From the NCBI GenBank assembly GCA_025059875.1, contig JANXCT010000001.1, forward strand, positions 248,001-312,000: a stretch of 64,000 nt of DNA. The letters are read 5' to 3'. Below, piece by piece: positions 1,250 through 55,171 of this stretch (within the stretch, counting starts at the first letter, position 1; each line of letters opens with the position of its first letter). The notes beneath the pieces were generated by a model. That model saw nothing but the letters and a program-made list of their open reading frames with translations, was not told the origin of the DNA and did not search any database. Position numbers and translations under genes: made by a program. Source of the stretch: Candidatus Kapaibacterium sp. (lineage in GTDB: Bacteria > Bacteroidota > Ignavibacteria > Kapaibacteriales > HRBIN21).

Positions 1250-3715
1250 CTAGGGTATTCCCCAAAGGCTCACCACATATGAGACGTACGTACTGAGAGA
1301 ACGTGAGGTCTCGCAGATCCCGAGTAGAAGCACCCCAGCAGTGACAGCAATCCAGGAAGTTCCGACGAGGAGGCTCCAAAGGCGGAGGCGCAAGATGCTT
1401 TGAGCCCCTCGCAGGATCCGCCAGCAGCTCCATATTCCGACTGCTCCCAGGAGCAGGAAGGTCGCTATCCTGGCTTCTGGAGAGCCCATGAGTCGTGCCC
1501 CTGCCAGTAGAAGCGGGGTTGGGAGCAGTACCGGTAGTGAGGCCCAAACGACGACGGAGAGTGATGTCATCCAAGAGACGTTCCGCCGTAAGAGGCGTGC
1601 CACAAGGGCGATGAAGGTGGAGGCCGTTACGAAAATCCCGGCAAAGAGGAACGCGTTGACGAGGAGTTGTGCCCATGGCCTAGTGATGCTCCATGCCACC
1701 GCTTCACGGATGGCGGAGCTCGGTAACAGATGCCATAGGAGGATGACCAGCGGAGGCTGGACTCGCAGCCATTCCTGGATGAGGGAGGCAAAGAGTGCAG
1801 CGGCGAAGTTGCAGAAGGCTCCCCACAGCAGAGTGGCGGCGTAATCTACGAAGCGGCCGTCACGTAAGTCAGCGAAGAAAGAAGTGCTTCGAGCTAAGGC
1901 GCGCCAGACATGCTGGCGGAACCGTGGGACACGGTTAAGCATCCAGCCCATGCCAAGGAGGAGGAAAGCCGCAAGCAGAGTGTGGAGTGGGGGTAGGTCA
2001 GCCGGGGGAGTTCCAGGTACCAGAAGCGGCTCTAAGTCCCGTTGGAGGAAGGCCTGAAGTGCACTGTAGGCCACTCGAGGGGTCCCTGTACTATCGGCAA
2101 TCCCAGTGGAGCATACGTGAGCTGCTGGAAAGGGGAAGCTGATCAGAGGGAAGGATGTGGCATAGTCTTGCCAGCTCCATACGATTGCTCCGGCAGTGCC
2201 GGAGCTAGCACATGTAGAGAGGAAGCTCCATATCCATCGGGCCTGAGCTTCTTCTGAGTTCGGCACGAGATACCCACGGTGCTCCTCGTTTGGGGAGATA
2301 GGCATGCCTCCAATGGGTACCAGTGCATATCGGCGTGCATAGTTGCGCCAGGAGGTAGGGCTACTGCTGAGACTCGCGAGATCGGCAAACGGAGGATGGA
2401 CGCGGAGGAAGAGTAGGGGAAAGCGTGGTGAAGACTCGAAGCGGGTATTTGCGTAGCTTTCCACGGCAAGGAGAAGGTTGTATGGCTGAAACCACCGCAG
2501 CATCTCGTCCTCGTATGCTCTTACAGCAGGGTGCGGTGGGAGGCCTTGCCAGAGGGTTACCGCGATGATTGCTGGGTTGCTCAACTGTTGGAGGAAGAGG
2601 CGAAGATAGAGCTGAAGGCTGCTACGGACTCGCGGAGATAACAACAACTGCGGTGGAAGCTCAGCAACAGGAAGGTCGCAAACCGCAGTGATCCCTGCCA
2701 CAGCAAGGGCCTGCAATAGATCGGGCGATGGGTGGTCACGCAGCCGAACTGTCGTGATCCCGAGCGCCTTCCATTGTCGGACTGTCGCCTGTAACGATGT
2801 CGTAGAAGTAGGGGACAGTGTTGGGTAGTACTCCACCCCGTACATTGGGAGGCGGACAGCGTTGCATGTAACAACAGCCGCACTCTCCGTCGTAGTGGTG
2901 CCAACGGACCGAAAGCCAGTCCTGATGAGCGCACCATCTATCGGTTGTGTGCTCCGGAGCAATTCAATTCGGGCTTCGTATAGCGTAGGGGTCTCAGGCG
3001 ACCACAGCTCCGGTGAAGTGAGCTCTATGGTGGTCTGCAACCGAGGGGGTACTTGAGGAGCGGCAAACGTCCGCTCAAGTACCATGGCGCTGTCGCGGAG
3101 GCGTTTGAGCTGGAAGCGAATGGTAAGAGGGTCAGAGCTTTCGCCTCCAATGCCAAGCTTGAGGTGAAGCTGCCCACTCTGCTGATTAGGGGATAAGGTT
3201 GTGAAGACTTCTGCTGCAGCAAGCCATGCCGATGATGTCCCTACGAGGAAGAGCTCGCGGAAACAACCGAGGACTCTCCGAGGGCCAAGGAAGGAGTGAG
3301 GCAGGAGACCTGCAGAGAGGCGAAGTTCTATGATATTCTCGCCTGCTCGCCACAGGCTTGCAGGAAGTGTGACGGTATTGGGAAGTCCGTAGCTGACAAG
3401 TTGCCCGGCATACCGACCGTTGAGATAGATCTCTGCGACATCGCCTAAGCCACGCGTAGAGAGGTGCCATACCCAGCGTAGGGCAGTGCTGTCCATCCGA
3501 ATGCTCCTTCGGTAGCGGAGCTCAGTCTGCTGAAACACGGTATGCGGAATCGTAGTCGCATGCCACGTGCTCCCGCCATCGGTTGACAGCTCCCATGTCC
3601 CTTGCAAAGGAATAGACCAGCGATGCAGCCACTGGTCCGGGACTGCCCACAGGAGTTGTCCACTTACCCATAGGAGGAAAGCTGGCCAGTACCAGTTGTT
3701 GCGTCGTCCCCCCAT
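1250..3715 (-). CDS. GH2-like pseudoenzyme fused to a C-terminal membrane domain
   Basis: 821 residues. A signal-anchor-like segment (about 10-25) precedes a GH2-type jellyroll (about 30-170), an Ig-like sandwich (ending near ELLRSTQPIDGALIRTGFRSV) and a TIM-barrel-like region (about 290-560) with LPMYGVEYYPT and, near its end, IVWSWQDYA. The acid/base site, normally a Trp-x-x-Asn-Glu motif, reads TLWQGLPP near residue 390, and the nucleophile region, normally Ser-Glu-Tyr-Gly, reads PIGGMPISP. Both catalytic glutamates therefore appear lost. From about residue 570 there are five or six hydrophobic helices. By fold this resembles a beta-glucuronidase/galactosidase, but it probably acts as a non-catalytic, membrane-bound carbohydrate-binding or structural protein. 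It follows the deacetylase gene by 16 bases and precedes hrcA. Confidence 0.6.
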   Translation of the reverse strand: MGGRRNNWYWPAFLLWVSGQLLWAVPDQWLHRWSIPLQGTWELSTDGGSTWHATTIPHTVFQQTELRYRRSIRMDSTALRWVWHLSTRGLGDVAEIYLNGRYAGQLVSYGLPNTVTLPASLWRAGENIIELRLSAGLLPHSFLGPRRVLGCFRELFLVGTSSAWLAAAEVFTTLSPNQQSGQLHLKLGIGGESSDPLTIRFQLKRLRDSAMVLERTFAAPQVPPRLQTTIELTSPELWSPETPTLYEARIELLRSTQPIDGALIRTGFRSVGTTTTESAAVVTCNAVRLPMYGVEYYPTLSPTSTTSLQATVRQWKALGITTVRLRDHPSPDLLQALAVAGITAVCDLPVAELPPQLLLSPRVRSSLQLYLRLFLQQLSNPAIIAVTLWQGLPPHPAVRAYEDEMLRWFQPYNLLLAVESYANTRFESSPRFPLLFLRVHPPFADLASLSSSPTSWRNYARRYALVPIGGMPISPNEEHRGYLVPNSEEAQARWIWSFLSTCASSGTAGAIVWSWQDYATSFPLISFPFPAAHVCSTGIADSTGTPRVAYSALQAFLQRDLEPLLVPGTPPADLPPLHTLLAAFLLLGMGWMLNRVPRFRQHVWRALARSTSFFADLRDGRFVDYAATLLWGAFCNFAAALFASLIQEWLRVQPPLVILLWHLLPSSAIREAVAWSITRPWAQLLVNAFLFAGIFVTASTFIALVARLLRRNVSWMTSLSVVVWASLPVLLPTPLLLAGARLMGSPEARIATFLLLGAVGIWSCWRILRGAQSILRLRLWSLLVGTSWIAVTAGVLLLGICETSRSLSTYVSYVVSLWGIP

Positions 3716-11840: not shown

Positions 11841-13415
11841 CTATGCCCGAGGTTCTAAGATAGCCACCGGCAGCACCATCTCCTCCAGAGAGATTCCACC
11901 GTGCTGAAAGCTATCGCGATAGTGTTGGGCGTAGTAGTGGTAGTCGGTCGGGTAGACAAAGTAGTAGTTCTCCTTCGCGATCACCATTGTGGAAGCAGCG
12001 CTGCTTCGAGGCAGGAGCCATTGCTGAGGATCGCGGAGGTACACGACGCCGCGCTCGTACTCTACGCGGAGATTTCGGCCCAACTTGTACCGGAGATTCG
12101 TCGTCGTCTCCCGATCGCCATACACTTTCAGCGGTCGGAGGCATCGGATGGAGCCGTGATCGGTGGTGATGATGACAGTAGGCCTCGGCTCTGCTGTTGC
12201 CAACGTGCGCAAGATGCCGAAGAGGCTCGAGTGGAGGAACCAGGAGCGTGTCAAAGTGCGGTATGCAGCTTCGTCGGGGACGATCTCACGCAGGATCGGG
12301 GATTCTGAGCGTGAGTGGACGAGCATGTCGACGGCATTGACTACGATGGCAATCAGGCCGTGCTGGAGGTAGCGCCCGATTTCTTGCTCCACCTTGCGCC
12401 CGAAGGCGGGATCGATGATTTTGAAGTAGGCGATCCCACCAGGGACCTCCATACGACGTCGCTGGAAGTAGGATTCCAGGAGTTGCCGCTCGTAGGCATT
12501 CTGGCTCTGCTCGTCTCCAGATTCATGCCACCATTGCGGGTAGTACTGCTGGATCTGCAGCGGGAAGAGCCCAGAGAAAATGGCGTTTCGAGCATAGGCA
12601 GTTGTTGTCGGGAGGATGGAGCAGGCGTAGTTTCGTTCGATGCTGTAGAGTCGATGCAAGACATCTTCCAACACTAGCCACTGGTCAAGCCGCAGACAGT
12701 CGATCACGATGAAGACAACGGGCCGCTCTGCTGAAATGCGTGGTACTACGAACCGCTCGAGGAGGAACGGAGAAAGGGTCGGTACGTCTTCCCCTTTGGG
12801 ATTTCGGAGCCATGACTCGTAGGCCTGCTCTACGAAGGTTCCGAAAGCGGCGTTACATTCGCGCCATTGAGCTGCAAGCGTCTCATGGAGGCCCAACTCT
12901 GGGTGTTCTTCCAGCTCCATACTCCAGGTGACAAGCTTCAAGTAGATCTCCAGCCAGTCGTACCACGTCAGCGGCTCATTCAGACGCCGACCAATCATGT
13001 AGAAGCCCCGTAGGTAGTCCTGCGTTAGGCGCTCTCCTGTGATCCGCCGAGCCTCGAGCAACTTTTTGCAGGCTGCGAGGATCTGCGTCGGATTGACCGG
13101 CTTAGTCAGGTAGTCGTCAATCTTGCGTCCGATGGCCTCCTCCATAAGGGTCTCGGCTTCGTTTTTGGTGACCATGACGACTGGTACATGAGGGGCAAGC
13201 TCTTTAAGCACCTCTAAGGTCTCTAAGCCAGTCATCCCCATCATCATCTCGTCCAGGAAGATGAGGTCGTAGGCGTTCTGCCGGACGAGTTCGATAGCAT
13301 CCTCGCCGGAAGTAGCAGTAGCGACCTCGTACCCGTGCTGGCAGAGCAGGAGGATGTGGGGCTGTAAGAGTTCTACTTCGTCGTCTACCCAAAGAATTGT
13401 ACCACGGCTCTTCAT
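11841..13415 (-). CDS. porX: T9SS regulator PorX (response receiver fused to PglZ domain)
   Basis: 524 residues. The CheY-like receiver (about 5-125) has WVDDEVE, the phospho-acceptor Asp in LIFLDEMMMGMTG and the switch Lys in YLTKPVNP. A helical linker leads to a PglZ/alkaline-phosphatase-fold domain with VFIVIDCLRLDQW, SILPTTTAYARNAIFSGLFP and ITTDHGSIR, which supply the metal-binding residues. PorX is the cytoplasmic regulator of type IX secretion, usually activated by PorY, and its PglZ domain is a zinc phosphodiesterase in characterised homologues. It is the first gene of the minus-strand run and diverges from the Nif3 gene. The expected length and all key residues are present. Confidence 0.93.
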   Translation of the reverse strand: MKSRGTILWVDDEVELLQPHILLLCQHGYEVATATSGEDAIELVRQNAYDLIFLDEMMMGMTGLETLEVLKELAPHVPVVMVTKNEAETLMEEAIGRKIDDYLTKPVNPTQILAACKKLLEARRITGERLTQDYLRGFYMIGRRLNEPLTWYDWLEIYLKLVTWSMELEEHPELGLHETLAAQWRECNAAFGTFVEQAYESWLRNPKGEDVPTLSPFLLERFVVPRISAERPVVFIVIDCLRLDQWLVLEDVLHRLYSIERNYACSILPTTTAYARNAIFSGLFPLQIQQYYPQWWHESGDEQSQNAYERQLLESYFQRRRMEVPGGIAYFKIIDPAFGRKVEQEIGRYLQHGLIAIVVNAVDMLVHSRSESPILREIVPDEAAYRTLTRSWFLHSSLFGILRTLATAEPRPTVIITTDHGSIRCLRPLKVYGDRETTTNLRYKLGRNLRVEYERGVVYLRDPQQWLLPRSSAASTMVIAKENYYFVYPTDYHYYAQHYRDSFQHGGISLEEMVLPVAILEPRA

Positions 13416-13508
13416 CGTGTCGTCCTATGCTGGTGTCGTCCGGAGCAGACGAACGGGGAGCCTTCGCATTACCAAGTACGGTGCCAACGTGGGCAGCTGC
13501 GTTTTTCG

Positions 13509-13516
13509 TAAGTTTG
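13509..13516 (+). promoter_or_regulatory. TAAGTTTG promoter-like box before the Nif3 gene
   Basis: An exact TAnnTTTG match in the 125-base divergent gap between porX and the Nif3-like gene, 25 bases before the ATG at 13541. No clear -33 element and no strong ribosome binding site follow it. Confidence 0.45.
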
Positions 13517-13540
13517 CATGCTTGCGAGCTACATAGCCTC

Positions 13541-14410
13541 ATGGGCATAGCCCTCACAGAGTTTCTAGCACTGGTAGACCAAGAGTTTCCCCCAGAGACG
13601 GCGAACGAAGGTGATGTAACAGGGCTCCAACTTCAATCAGGGCGGCAAGAAGTCAATGCCATCCTGGTGTGCTACGAGGTCACGGATGCTGTCATTGAGG
13701 AGGCTCGGCAAGGTGGGTATGACCTTATTGTTGCCTTCCATCCTCTCCTCTTTTCGCCGCTTCGGGCTCTTACGGAGGCGGATCGTGTTGGGCATTTGAG
13801 CACGCTGCTCATCCAGTACGGGATTGCCCTTGTGGTCCTCCACACACGGGTTGATGCCCATCCGGAAGGAACGACTGCACGGCTTGCTCATGCTTTAGGG
13901 CTGCGGGTCCGGGAGCCGCTGCTGCCGGATCCTCGGTATGCAGGGTATGGGATGGGATCGGTTGTGGAGTGCGATCCGCCCCTGGAAGCCCGGGAGCTGA
14001 TAGAACGTGTCGCAAGGTACAGTGGACAGCCAGTACGGTATGTCCCGGGTAGACCTCACGCCATTCGGATGGTTGCTCTCGTTGGTGGGAGCGGAGCAAG
14101 CTTCTTACCGCAGGTACTGCAGCGGGGTCTGGACGCTTTCATCACCGGTGATGTCAAGTACCATGCCTTCCTCCAAGCACAGCATCGGCTGTGGCTCATT
14201 GATGCAGGGCATGCAGAGACAGAGCGCTATGTCCCGGAGGCGATGGCAGAACTTCTACGACGTTGCCTTTCTGATTCCGTCCCTGTGAAGATCGCGCGTT
14301 CGTGGCGTGCGCCTATTCATTGGTACTGGCAAGGGGCTCCAGGTCTCACAGCTGCTGCTGGACTCAATGAAGGACCAGATCTACTACCTCGCGCTCATCG
14401 CTGTGATTGA
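13541..14410 (+). CDS. Nif3-like dinuclear metal-centre protein
   Basis: 289 residues, shorter than the about 370-residue Nif3 form with a PII-like insert. Family motifs: ETANEGDVTGLQLQSG, LIVAFHPLLFSPL, VVLHTRVDAHPEGT, LVGGSGASFL, DAFITGDVKYHAF and DAGHAETERY. The first motif normally reads His-His-Pro; here it is Phe-His-Pro, so one metal ligand is replaced. Nif3 proteins are widespread and poorly understood, with GTP cyclohydrolase I type 2 or hydrolase activity proposed. I place the start at the ATG at 13541, because the frame upstream only crosses the divergent promoter gap. The 3' end overlaps the zinc-ribbon gene by 44 bases, a gene pair that recurs in many bacteria. Confidence 0.88.
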   Translation: MGIALTEFLALVDQEFPPETANEGDVTGLQLQSGRQEVNAILVCYEVTDAVIEEARQGGYDLIVAFHPLLFSPLRALTEADRVGHLSTLLIQYGIALVVLHTRVDAHPEGTTARLAHALGLRVREPLLPDPRYAGYGMGSVVECDPPLEARELIERVARYSGQPVRYVPGRPHAIRMVALVGGSGASFLPQVLQRGLDAFITGDVKYHAFLQAQHRLWLIDAGHAETERYVPEAMAELLRRCLSDSVPVKIARSWRAPIHWYWQGAPGLTAAAGLNEGPDLLPRAHRCD

Positions 14411-15107
14411 CCGGCGACTGGATGAGCTGCAAGAGGACTTCGGCGAACTGCCTGACCAAGTACAGCGCGCCCGCCAAGCTGTACAGCACCATGAGGCACT
14501 AGTCAACGAAACTCGTGGCATCATCGAGGAGATCCGCTCCTTCCGCGCTCAGGCGCATATTACCATCCAAGAGTTGCGCGACCGCGAGCAACGACTCTCC
14601 GAGCAGCAGTTCCGGGTCCGGAACAACCGAGAGTTCGATGCGTTGACCCGTGAGATTCAGAATGTACGGAGCGAGCGGGAACGTATTGAGCAGGAGCTCC
14701 GCAATTCGGTGGTCAAGTTGGAGAACCTGGAGAGCATCCTCCAGCGGCAAGAGGAAGAATTAGCACGTGCGCAACAGGAGCTGGCAGAACTGGAACACGC
14801 GCTGGAGCTGTTGAGCAGCCACCAGAGTGACGAGGTCGTGCAGCTCCACCAATGGCGGCAGCGACTGGTCCAGAAGGTACGTTCGGAGTTGCTGGGAGAG
14901 TATGAGCGCGTCCGTTCCTTCCATCGCGATGCATTGGTGCCGGTCCGCCGAGAAAGCTGCTCTGGGTGCTACAGTCGCATTACTCCCCAACGGTTGGTGG
15001 AGATTCGCATGTACCGCGAACATATCTTCCGTTGCGAACACTGCGGCAGGATTCTCTACCCAGAGGAGCGCCTTCCCGAGCTCGAAGAGGCGGAAGCGCT
15101 ATCATGA
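14367..15107 (+). CDS. Coiled-coil protein with C4 zinc ribbon (CdsZ-like)
   Basis: 246 residues. Residues about 15-185 are a long alpha-helical coiled coil rich in Glu, Gln and Arg. The C-terminus carries CSGCYSRITPQRL and, about 20 residues later, FRCEHCGRILYP: two CxxC pairs forming a C4 zinc ribbon. This is the zf-RING_7/YbaJ-like family typically next to Nif3 genes; its biochemical role is not established. I start at the ATG at 14367 (MKDQIYYLALIAVIDRRL), inside the end of the Nif3 gene. The stop overlaps the RNase H start as ATGA, so all three proteins are probably made from one transcript. Confidence 0.85.
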   Translation: MKDQIYYLALIAVIDRRLDELQEDFGELPDQVQRARQAVQHHEALVNETRGIIEEIRSFRAQAHITIQELRDREQRLSEQQFRVRNNREFDALTREIQNVRSERERIEQELRNSVVKLENLESILQRQEEELARAQQELAELEHALELLSSHQSDEVVQLHQWRQRLVQKVRSELLGEYERVRSFHRDALVPVRRESCSGCYSRITPQRLVEIRMYREHIFRCEHCGRILYPEERLPELEEAEALS

Positions 15108-15640
15108 AGCTACATGTCTTCATTGATGGAGCAGCGGCTGGGAATCCCGGCCCGGCAGGAATTGGTGTGGTCATCGTAGGTGACAATGGCGCTCCACTAC
15201 TCCAATGTGCTGAGTCCATCGGAACTGCAACGAATAACGTCGCCGAGTACCGTGCTCTCCTGCGGGCCTTAGAGATCCTTCCCAACTTGGATGTCCAACT
15301 GGACAGCGTGACTATCTGCAGCGATAGCCAACTGTTGGTTCAGCAGCTGACTGGCAGCTACCGCGTCCGGACACAACACTTGCTCTCTCTGTGGGAAGAG
15401 GCACGGCGGAGATTGCAGGAGCTGCAGGTTCCGGTCCGCATAGAGCATATTCCACGGGAGGCTAACTACGAGGCCGATCGACTGGCGCGAGTCGGGGCTC
15501 GGATGTCGCAACGACAGTATGCTAAGGGCAGTGAATCTTCGTCTTTCTACCAGCAAAGCCGGGGGACGCGGGCAGCCGCGGGAGCCAATGTGCTGGTTCC
15601 TGAGGAAAGTCCGAACTCCGCAGAGCAGCGTGCCGGCTAA
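15104..15640 (+). CDS. RNase HI-family protein whose 3' end overlaps rnpB
   Basis: 178 residues. The RNase H fold is complete by about residue 135, with the catalytic set visible: Asp in VFIDGAAAGNPGPAGIG, Glu in NNVAEYRALLRALE, Asp in ICSDSQLLVQQL and the last Asp in NYEADRLARVG. This class (RHase HI-like, often labelled reverse-transcriptase-like) cleaves RNA in RNA-DNA hybrids. Residues after about 140 form a low-complexity, Ser/Arg/Ala/Glu-rich tail with no family equivalent, and residues 152-178 are encoded by the first 83 bases of the RNase P RNA gene. The tail therefore looks like a by-product of running into rnpB. Start ATG at 15104 overlaps the preceding stop. Confidence 0.88.
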   Translation: MKLHVFIDGAAAGNPGPAGIGVVIVGDNGAPLLQCAESIGTATNNVAEYRALLRALEILPNLDVQLDSVTICSDSQLLVQQLTGSYRVRTQHLLSLWEEARRRLQELQVPVRIEHIPREANYEADRLARVGARMSQRQYAKGSESSSFYQQSRGTRAAAGANVLVPEESPNSAEQRAG

Positions 15641-16008
15641 CCGCCGGGCGGAACTCCGTTGGGGAGGTCCGACGGACAGTGCCACAGAGACCAGACCGCC
15701 AATCCGCTCATGGAGTTGCCACGACTCCATGGGGTCATGGAGGCAAGGGTGAAAGGGTGGGGTAAGAGCCCACCAGCACCTCGGGTAACCGAGGTGGCTT
15801 GGCAAACCCCACGCGGAGCAAGGCCGAGTAGGGATGTGGACCACGCTCCAGGGGTGGCGGGTGGCTCGCCCGCTGGGGGCTCCCTCCAACGGAGACCCCT
15901 CACATCCGGGTAGGCCGCTGGAGGGGATGGGAGACCATCCCCCAAGATACATGGCTGCCTCCCCCGAAGAACGGGGAAGACAGAATTCGGCTTACAGTGT
16001 CCCCCGGC
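15558..16008 (+). ncRNA. rnpB: RNase P RNA, bacterial type A
   Basis: The ends pair as helix P1: GCCGGGGGAC at 15558-15567 with GTCCCCCGGC at 15999-16008. The conserved core is unmistakable: GAGGAAAGTCC (15602-15612), ACAGTGCCACAGAGA (15676 on), GGGTAAGAGCCCACC, GCAAACCCCACGCGGAGCAA with AGTAGGG, AGATACATGGCTGCC, and AGACAGAATTCGGCTTACAG near the 3' end. About 451 nucleotides, a normal size for type A. This is the catalytic RNA that matures tRNA and tmRNA 5' ends. Its first 83 bases lie inside the RNase H coding region, so it is either processed from the operon transcript or has a promoter inside that gene. End positions are within a few bases. Confidence 0.96.
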
Positions 16009-16045
16009 GCACTTCTTCTCCATCGGTTGACTTCGGGAAGGGGTG

Positions 16046-54586: not shown

Positions 54587-54649
54587 GGGTGGGTGGAGGT
54601 ATGTACGGCAGGGCGTTGTGGTGGTGAAATTGAGAGGGCAGGGATATCG

Positions 54650-55023
54650 TGGAGATGGTGGGAGTCGAACCCACGTCCAAGATGTGAACTCAGGAGTCTC
54701 TCCATGCTCAGCCACCCTTTCTGACTTCGCTCTGGCGGCTCCGGGTGGCGGGACGTCCAGAGCTATCGCCGTCTCGCTTCAGCGCTTTCGGCGCCCGGCG
54801 ATGGCCCCGAAGGCACTGCCCATCTGAGGTCCACGCCTGGTGCAGGACGGATGGGCACGTCATCTGCCCAGACGATGGCGCCTAATCCCTCGGATTAGGC
54901 GGCCATGCGGTACGAGACCGCGTCGGCACTTTTTGTCCGCCGGTTGTATTAACGTGCTCACCGGCGAAGCACGGCATGCAACCCCTGAGTTCTCTCATCT
55001 TGTCGAGACCCAGGTCCATCCCC
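54650..55023 (-). ncRNA. ssrA: Transfer-messenger RNA, tag ADAVSYRMAA
   Basis: About 374 nucleotides. Acceptor stem arms GGGGATG (5' end at 55023) and CATCTCC (54651-54657) pair with one G-U. The T arm reads GTGGGTTCGACTCCCAC on the minus strand. Near the 5' end the core TGGGTCTCGACAAG and GGTTGCATGCCG match tmRNA. The tag frame (GCC at 54927 to TAA at 54895) encodes ADAVSYRMAA, close in pattern to the Chlorobium-type tag ending YSYAMAA. CCA is not encoded (CGA follows). tmRNA with SmpB rescues stalled ribosomes. It follows argS on the same strand. End positions are within a few bases. Confidence 0.95.
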
Positions 55024-55171
55024 GTTCGAGCAGTCCTATAGACGTCGTAGCGGCAGTGTATAGTCTACGCCACAACTCAGGCTGACCACTAAGCCTCGGG
55101 TTGCGGTCCTAAGCTACCCCGGGGTGTCTCAGGAATGTGCTCCTCGAGCTACGAACATGGGGTAGTACCCA

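Follow-up and report, generated by a model that had tools for sequence, protein, structure and literature searches.

The systems closest to the locus described here are class A RNase P RNA, as captured by the Rfam family RF00010, and the RNase H1 enzymes represented by the solved structures 3u3g/4h8k and by the N-terminal domain of Rv2228c (3hst), which are the nearest structures to the RNase H considered in this study. In the literature that we searched, we found no description of a zinc ribbon–RNase H–rnpB gene neighbourhood, and nothing on point for overlaps with rnpB or for CT398 or Rv2228c together with rnpB. Here, we have analysed a window of 64,000 nucleotides from Candidatus Kapaibacterium sp. 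(contig JANXCT010000001.1, positions 248,001 to 312,000 of the forward strand; all coordinates below count from the first letter of this window), in which a gene of the RNase H1 family runs into rnpB on the same strand. The protein matches the RNase H1 type over residues 2-130 but has an extra tail of approximately 40 residues, predicted to be disordered, the last 27 of which are encoded by rnpB. Likewise, the window rnpB matches the class A model over its full length, whereas its 5' 83 nt double as an open reading frame. The overlap is real but belongs to the species level, and its most probable origin is a stop codon lost within a tight and old gene tandem.

Anatomy of the overlap

The rnpB gene occupies 15558..16010 on the plus strand. 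A single full-length match to the Rfam model RNaseP_bact_a is present in the window (15560-16010, plus strand; 271.4 bits, E=1.7e-87), which spans all model positions 1-367 and lies well above the gathering cut-off of 100 bits, and this is the sole copy in the genome. Judged by sequence, the gene is a class A RNase P RNA, in agreement with the type assigned in the initial annotation. Both the alignment and the minimum free energy (MFE) fold place the first pair of helix P1 at G15558, where GCCGGGGGAC pairs with GUCCCCCGGC, which confirms the P1 start proposed for that base.

Upstream lies a tandem of protein genes on the same strand, headed by a NIF3/DUF34 gene (13397..14410, plus strand; Pfam DUF34_NIF3) and followed by a zinc-ribbon/coiled-coil gene of the CT398-like type (14307..15107, plus strand; Pfam Zn_ribbon_9), which in this order is the gene most often found immediately before rnpB. 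The ATG of the RNase H1-family gene (15104..15640, plus strand; 178 amino acids) overlaps the TGA that ends the zinc-ribbon gene. From this ATG at 15104, the RNase H frame has no stop and, as had been read at the outset, stays open to the TAA that ends at 15640. Its product matches both Pfam RNase_H (45.2 bits, cut-off 25.8) and RVT_3 (67.7 bits, cut-off 21.6) inside residues 3-132, and D8, E48, D74 and D125, which we take from established knowledge of RNase H1 to be the acidic catalytic D-E-D-D set, are invariant across seven homologues. The end of the fold falls near residue 132-140, consistent with the earlier estimate of approximately residue 135. AlphaFold gives high confidence over most of the RNase H fold and pLDDT values below 50 for residues 141-172 and 174-178, and residues 141-178 are predicted to be disordered.

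The two genes share 83 nt (15558..15640, plus strand), comprising the last 27 codons of the RNase H gene and its stop codon; both the sense overlap of this length and the encoding of the last 27 residues by rnpB, claimed in the initial annotation, agree with the coordinates of the RNA and of the reading frame. Within rnpB, the shared region is the 5' part, from P1 up to the conserved UAAC loop. The terminal TAA (15638..15640, plus strand) is the UAA of the RNA's own conserved CUAAC motif (GGCUAAC), a motif found in all six genus members. The spacing in rnpB from GAGGAAAGUCC to this UAA preserves the frame GAG GAA AGU CCG ... UAA, which runs through conserved region I without an early stop, and an upstream frame that enters rnpB in the GAG GAA AGU CCG phase terminates after about 70-85 nt. 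In three-frame readings of 60 rnpB loci, one frame often met its first stop 70-90 nt into the RNA, mostly at the conserved UAA; an overlap of approximately 80 nt is therefore the ordinary result of losing an upstream stop in this frame.

Transcription of rnpB and a shared upstream element

A promoter-like element, TTCGTCT (15538..15544, plus strand), lies approximately 20 nt before rnpB and is present in five of the six genus members, with TACGTCT in the sixth. In the 60 nt that precede rnpB, its core, CGTCT, is the only 5-mer common to all six members; the distance of this core from the RNA is 20-24 nt in five of them and 36 nt in G002. Simulated windows matched in composition gave a shared 5-mer of any kind in 0.03% of trials and, in 20,000 sets, never a 7-mer common to at least five of six; these figures are generous given the shared ancestry of the genus members. 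The core is kept both where it is coding (G000, G002 and G003, whose tails owe their serine run to it) and where it is non-coding (the other three members), so the reason for its retention lies at the level of DNA or RNA. Before tmRNA, the same pentamer is found at a distance of 20-21 nt in all six members (as CGTTT in G005). In the window, the two CGTCT sites are 15540-15544 (plus strand) before rnpB and 55040-55044 (minus strand) before the tmRNA gene (54647-55023, minus strand), whose tag peptide is ADAVSYRMAA.

We infer that CGTCT is probably a promoter element of rnpB and tmRNA. Two features count against this part of our account: no recognisable -35 was found for the element, and it is unlike the TAnnTTTG-like boxes carried instead by the tRNAs, rRNA and SRP RNA of the genus (the SRP RNA box reads TAATTTCG). 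A TAnnTTTG box of the Bacteroidota type before rnpB was considered and rejected, as none was found in this genus. The occurrence of CGTCT at rnpB and tmRNA could mark a different sigma factor. If CGTCT serves as the rnpB promoter, the main transcripts would begin downstream of the codon at which RNase H translation starts and would be free of RNase H ribosomes. The suggestion that ribosomes might interfere with the folding of RNase P RNA thus survives in part: such interference would be possible on read-through transcripts, but restricted to them if rnpB has its own start.

Another explanation is that rnpB lacks a dedicated promoter and is released by processing from the 3' portion of a NIF3/zinc-ribbon/RNase H mRNA, in which case the overlap would be a by-product. 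Although the gaps between the upstream stop and P1 are very small across the order, down to 6 nt, as would be expected in that case, the CGTCT element is conserved in the genus and also stands before tmRNA, and some of the order's other members have boxA-like or TAnnTTTG elements before rnpB; we consider processing from such an mRNA unlikely.

Several further observations concern upstream elements in related genomes. A boxA-like sequence, G[CT]TCTTT[GA], is found in the 25 nt that precede rnpB at 16 of 113 loci of the order (L009, L011, L014, L034, L041, L058, L060, L088, L093, L094, L105, L108, L120, L123, L127 and L129) and at 2 of the 31 loci from other phyla (L145 and L193), compared with a background mean of 0.07 per same-size window. 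The position of these sites before rnpB suggests Nus-type antitermination of RNase P RNA synthesis; the papers searched contained nothing on boxA with rnpB. As an identity for the genus element itself, boxA was rejected, because the rRNA leaders of the genus have a normal GTTCTTTGAAAAC boxA, unlike TTCGTCT. In several genus members (L082, L083 and L085), GAAATTAGCAAA, the reverse complement of the TTTGCTAATTTC-type box, is located upstream of SRP RNA, as if there were a divergent promoter there.

Distribution of the overlap in the genus

The comparison set consisted of rnpB loci from the five congeners and from 54 additional relatives in the order. Relative to RNA position 1, the RNase H stop is found at +81 in the window's own genome, at -31, -1, +34, -33 and -36 in G001 to G005, respectively, and at +25 in G010, which belongs to another family. 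The RNase H gene thus ends before rnpB in four of the five congeners, an outcome that the initial annotation had named as one that would refute it, and the two genes do not form a conserved overlapping pair.

The proposal that the shared bases are under two constraints finds no support in these comparisons. RNase H proteins align well up to approximately residue 138, with 58-63% identity within the genus; beyond this point, no convincing alignment of the tails was obtained among homologues, and the tail is variable in both length and sequence in addition to its predicted disorder. Variable columns of the overlap across the genus number 5/27, 11/27 and 7/27 at RNase H codon positions 1, 2 and 3, respectively. 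Because no third-position bias is seen, the sequences give no sign of a second constraint on the overlap bases at the protein level.

The upstream sequence retains what may be a trace of the lost stop. A TAA at 15523..15525 (plus strand), 35 nt before the RNA and out of frame, lies at the site of the in-frame RNase H stop of three sister species, to which it is presumably homologous. In these species (G001, G004 and G005), the in-frame stop is located 27 nt past the arginine codon that ends an LGAR-like motif, whereas the TAA of the window lies only 20 nt past that codon; this difference in spacing suggests a net 7-nt shortening as the simplest origin of the overlap. Neither G002 nor G003 has a stop at this position. 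Both trees give poor support to either tail length, short or long, as the ancestral one in the genus, and we count this against the stop-loss account.

The same signature could reflect a sequencing or assembly error, with a small indel around 15503-15522 that disrupted the reading frame and concealed the real stop. The coincidence of the out-of-frame TAA with the sister stops, the 7-nt deficit relative to these species and the draft state of the genome (33 contigs) are all in line with such an error; however, a net error of 7 nt is less usual than one of 1 nt, the contig is 590 kb long, and G003 and G010 also overlap, making an overlap plausible in itself. We consider an artefact quite unlikely.

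A conserved neighbourhood across phyla

It is the neighbourhood, and not the overlap, that is the conserved feature and deserves more attention. Across 113 rnpB loci of the order, the zinc-ribbon gene stands directly upstream of rnpB in 85, with stops at -152 to -6 and none overlapping, while RNase H lies between the two in 7, 3 of which overlap; the zinc-ribbon gene is thus kept just upstream, directly or with RNase H between, in 92 loci, and in 21 neither gene was found upstream of rnpB.

RNase H relatives were collected from a set with one genome per species, which yielded 80 loci from many phyla; this named collection may omit records close to the window's own genome. Rfam scans of all 80 showed 31 with a class A rnpB downstream of RNase H and in the same orientation, although the loci were picked by similarity to the window RNase H and this proportion is not the linkage rate for all bacteria. 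In 26 of the 31, at most 250 nt separate the RNA from the RNase H stop. As a bacterial genome holds about one rnpB in millions of bases, this linkage cannot be due to chance. The zinc-ribbon gene precedes RNase H in 22 of the 26 closely linked loci, so that all three genes keep their order and strand in distant phyla. Actinobacterial RNase H loci (L146, L149 and L198) also show the order zinc ribbon, RNase H, rnpB seen in the window, but their rnpB lies 0.9-1.3 kb past RNase H, without overlap. In L162 (Bdellovibrionota), the RNase H reading frame, judged by its sequence, appears to be fused to an acetyltransferase-like C-terminal region and ends 247 nt before rnpB.

Long overlaps are found in 4 of the 26 linked loci, namely, two in Omnitrophota (L199, +68; L217, +69), one in Latescibacterota (L142, +71) and one in Armatimonadota (L170, +75), and a fifth locus (L207) overlaps by 2 nt. 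In L170, the RNase H reading frame (3001-3657) runs through an extra unidentified stretch before its 75 nt in rnpB. The four long overlaps resemble that of the window in that RNase H enters rnpB and acquires an EESPxS tail, but they belong to distant phyla and their tails before conserved region I are unrelated to the window tail. All five, the window included, use one frame of the RNA, in which conserved region I is read as EESPxS, and selection could be an alternative cause of this common frame, although the frame is also one that meets no early stop in that region. The tails of the two Omnitrophota species are alike (DDRPDVFIMGEESPSS), indicating that an overlap can last within a clade. Both the single frame and this pair of tails count against the stop-loss account. 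One reading of these data is that the RNase H-rnpB pair represents an ancient functional linkage, for example, R-loop clearing by RNase H at a highly transcribed untranslated gene, with the overlap serving in several lineages to couple the translation of RNase H to the supply of RNase P RNA; we see only a slim prospect of this being correct. It is likewise improbable that the overlap is itself functional, with RNase H ribosomes tuning the folding or decay of nascent RNase P RNA or the RNA-encoded tail giving RNase H a new contact, because, despite overlaps of 68-81 nt in four lineages with the EESPxS-giving frame every time and a tail common to two Omnitrophota species, the overlap is missing in four of five congeners and most of the 26 linked loci, the tail of the window protein is unconserved and predicted to be disordered, and the internal start element predicts rnpB transcripts that lack the RNase H start codon.

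Origin and significance of the overlap

Taken together, we favour, with a probability of roughly 0.78, bypass of a stop codon in an old tandem, with a 27-residue tail that is tolerated and not used and an rnpB transcribed mainly from its own start. On this account, rnpB closes an old tandem of zinc-ribbon protein, RNase H1 and RNase P RNA, in which tens of bases would separate the RNase H stop from P1. In this species, the stop was apparently bypassed through the net 7-nt shortening, which would have left the TAA out of frame and allowed the frame to continue to the UAA in the conserved loop of RNase P RNA. The tail would be tolerated rather than used, and rnpB would be made mainly from its own start near TTCGTCT, inside the RNase H coding sequence. 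RNase H translation would then touch minor read-through transcripts only and would not govern the folding of RNase P RNA.

The overlap is a natural and clear-cut example of a protein-coding gene that enters a ribozyme gene and uses the ribozyme's conserved UAA as its stop codon. It also bears on genome annotation, since RNase H C-termini with EESPxS that are reported by gene callers may be RNase P RNA sequence. The neighbourhood that spans phyla is the more useful result, as it makes a link between the removal of RNA-DNA hybrids and the expression of RNase P testable.
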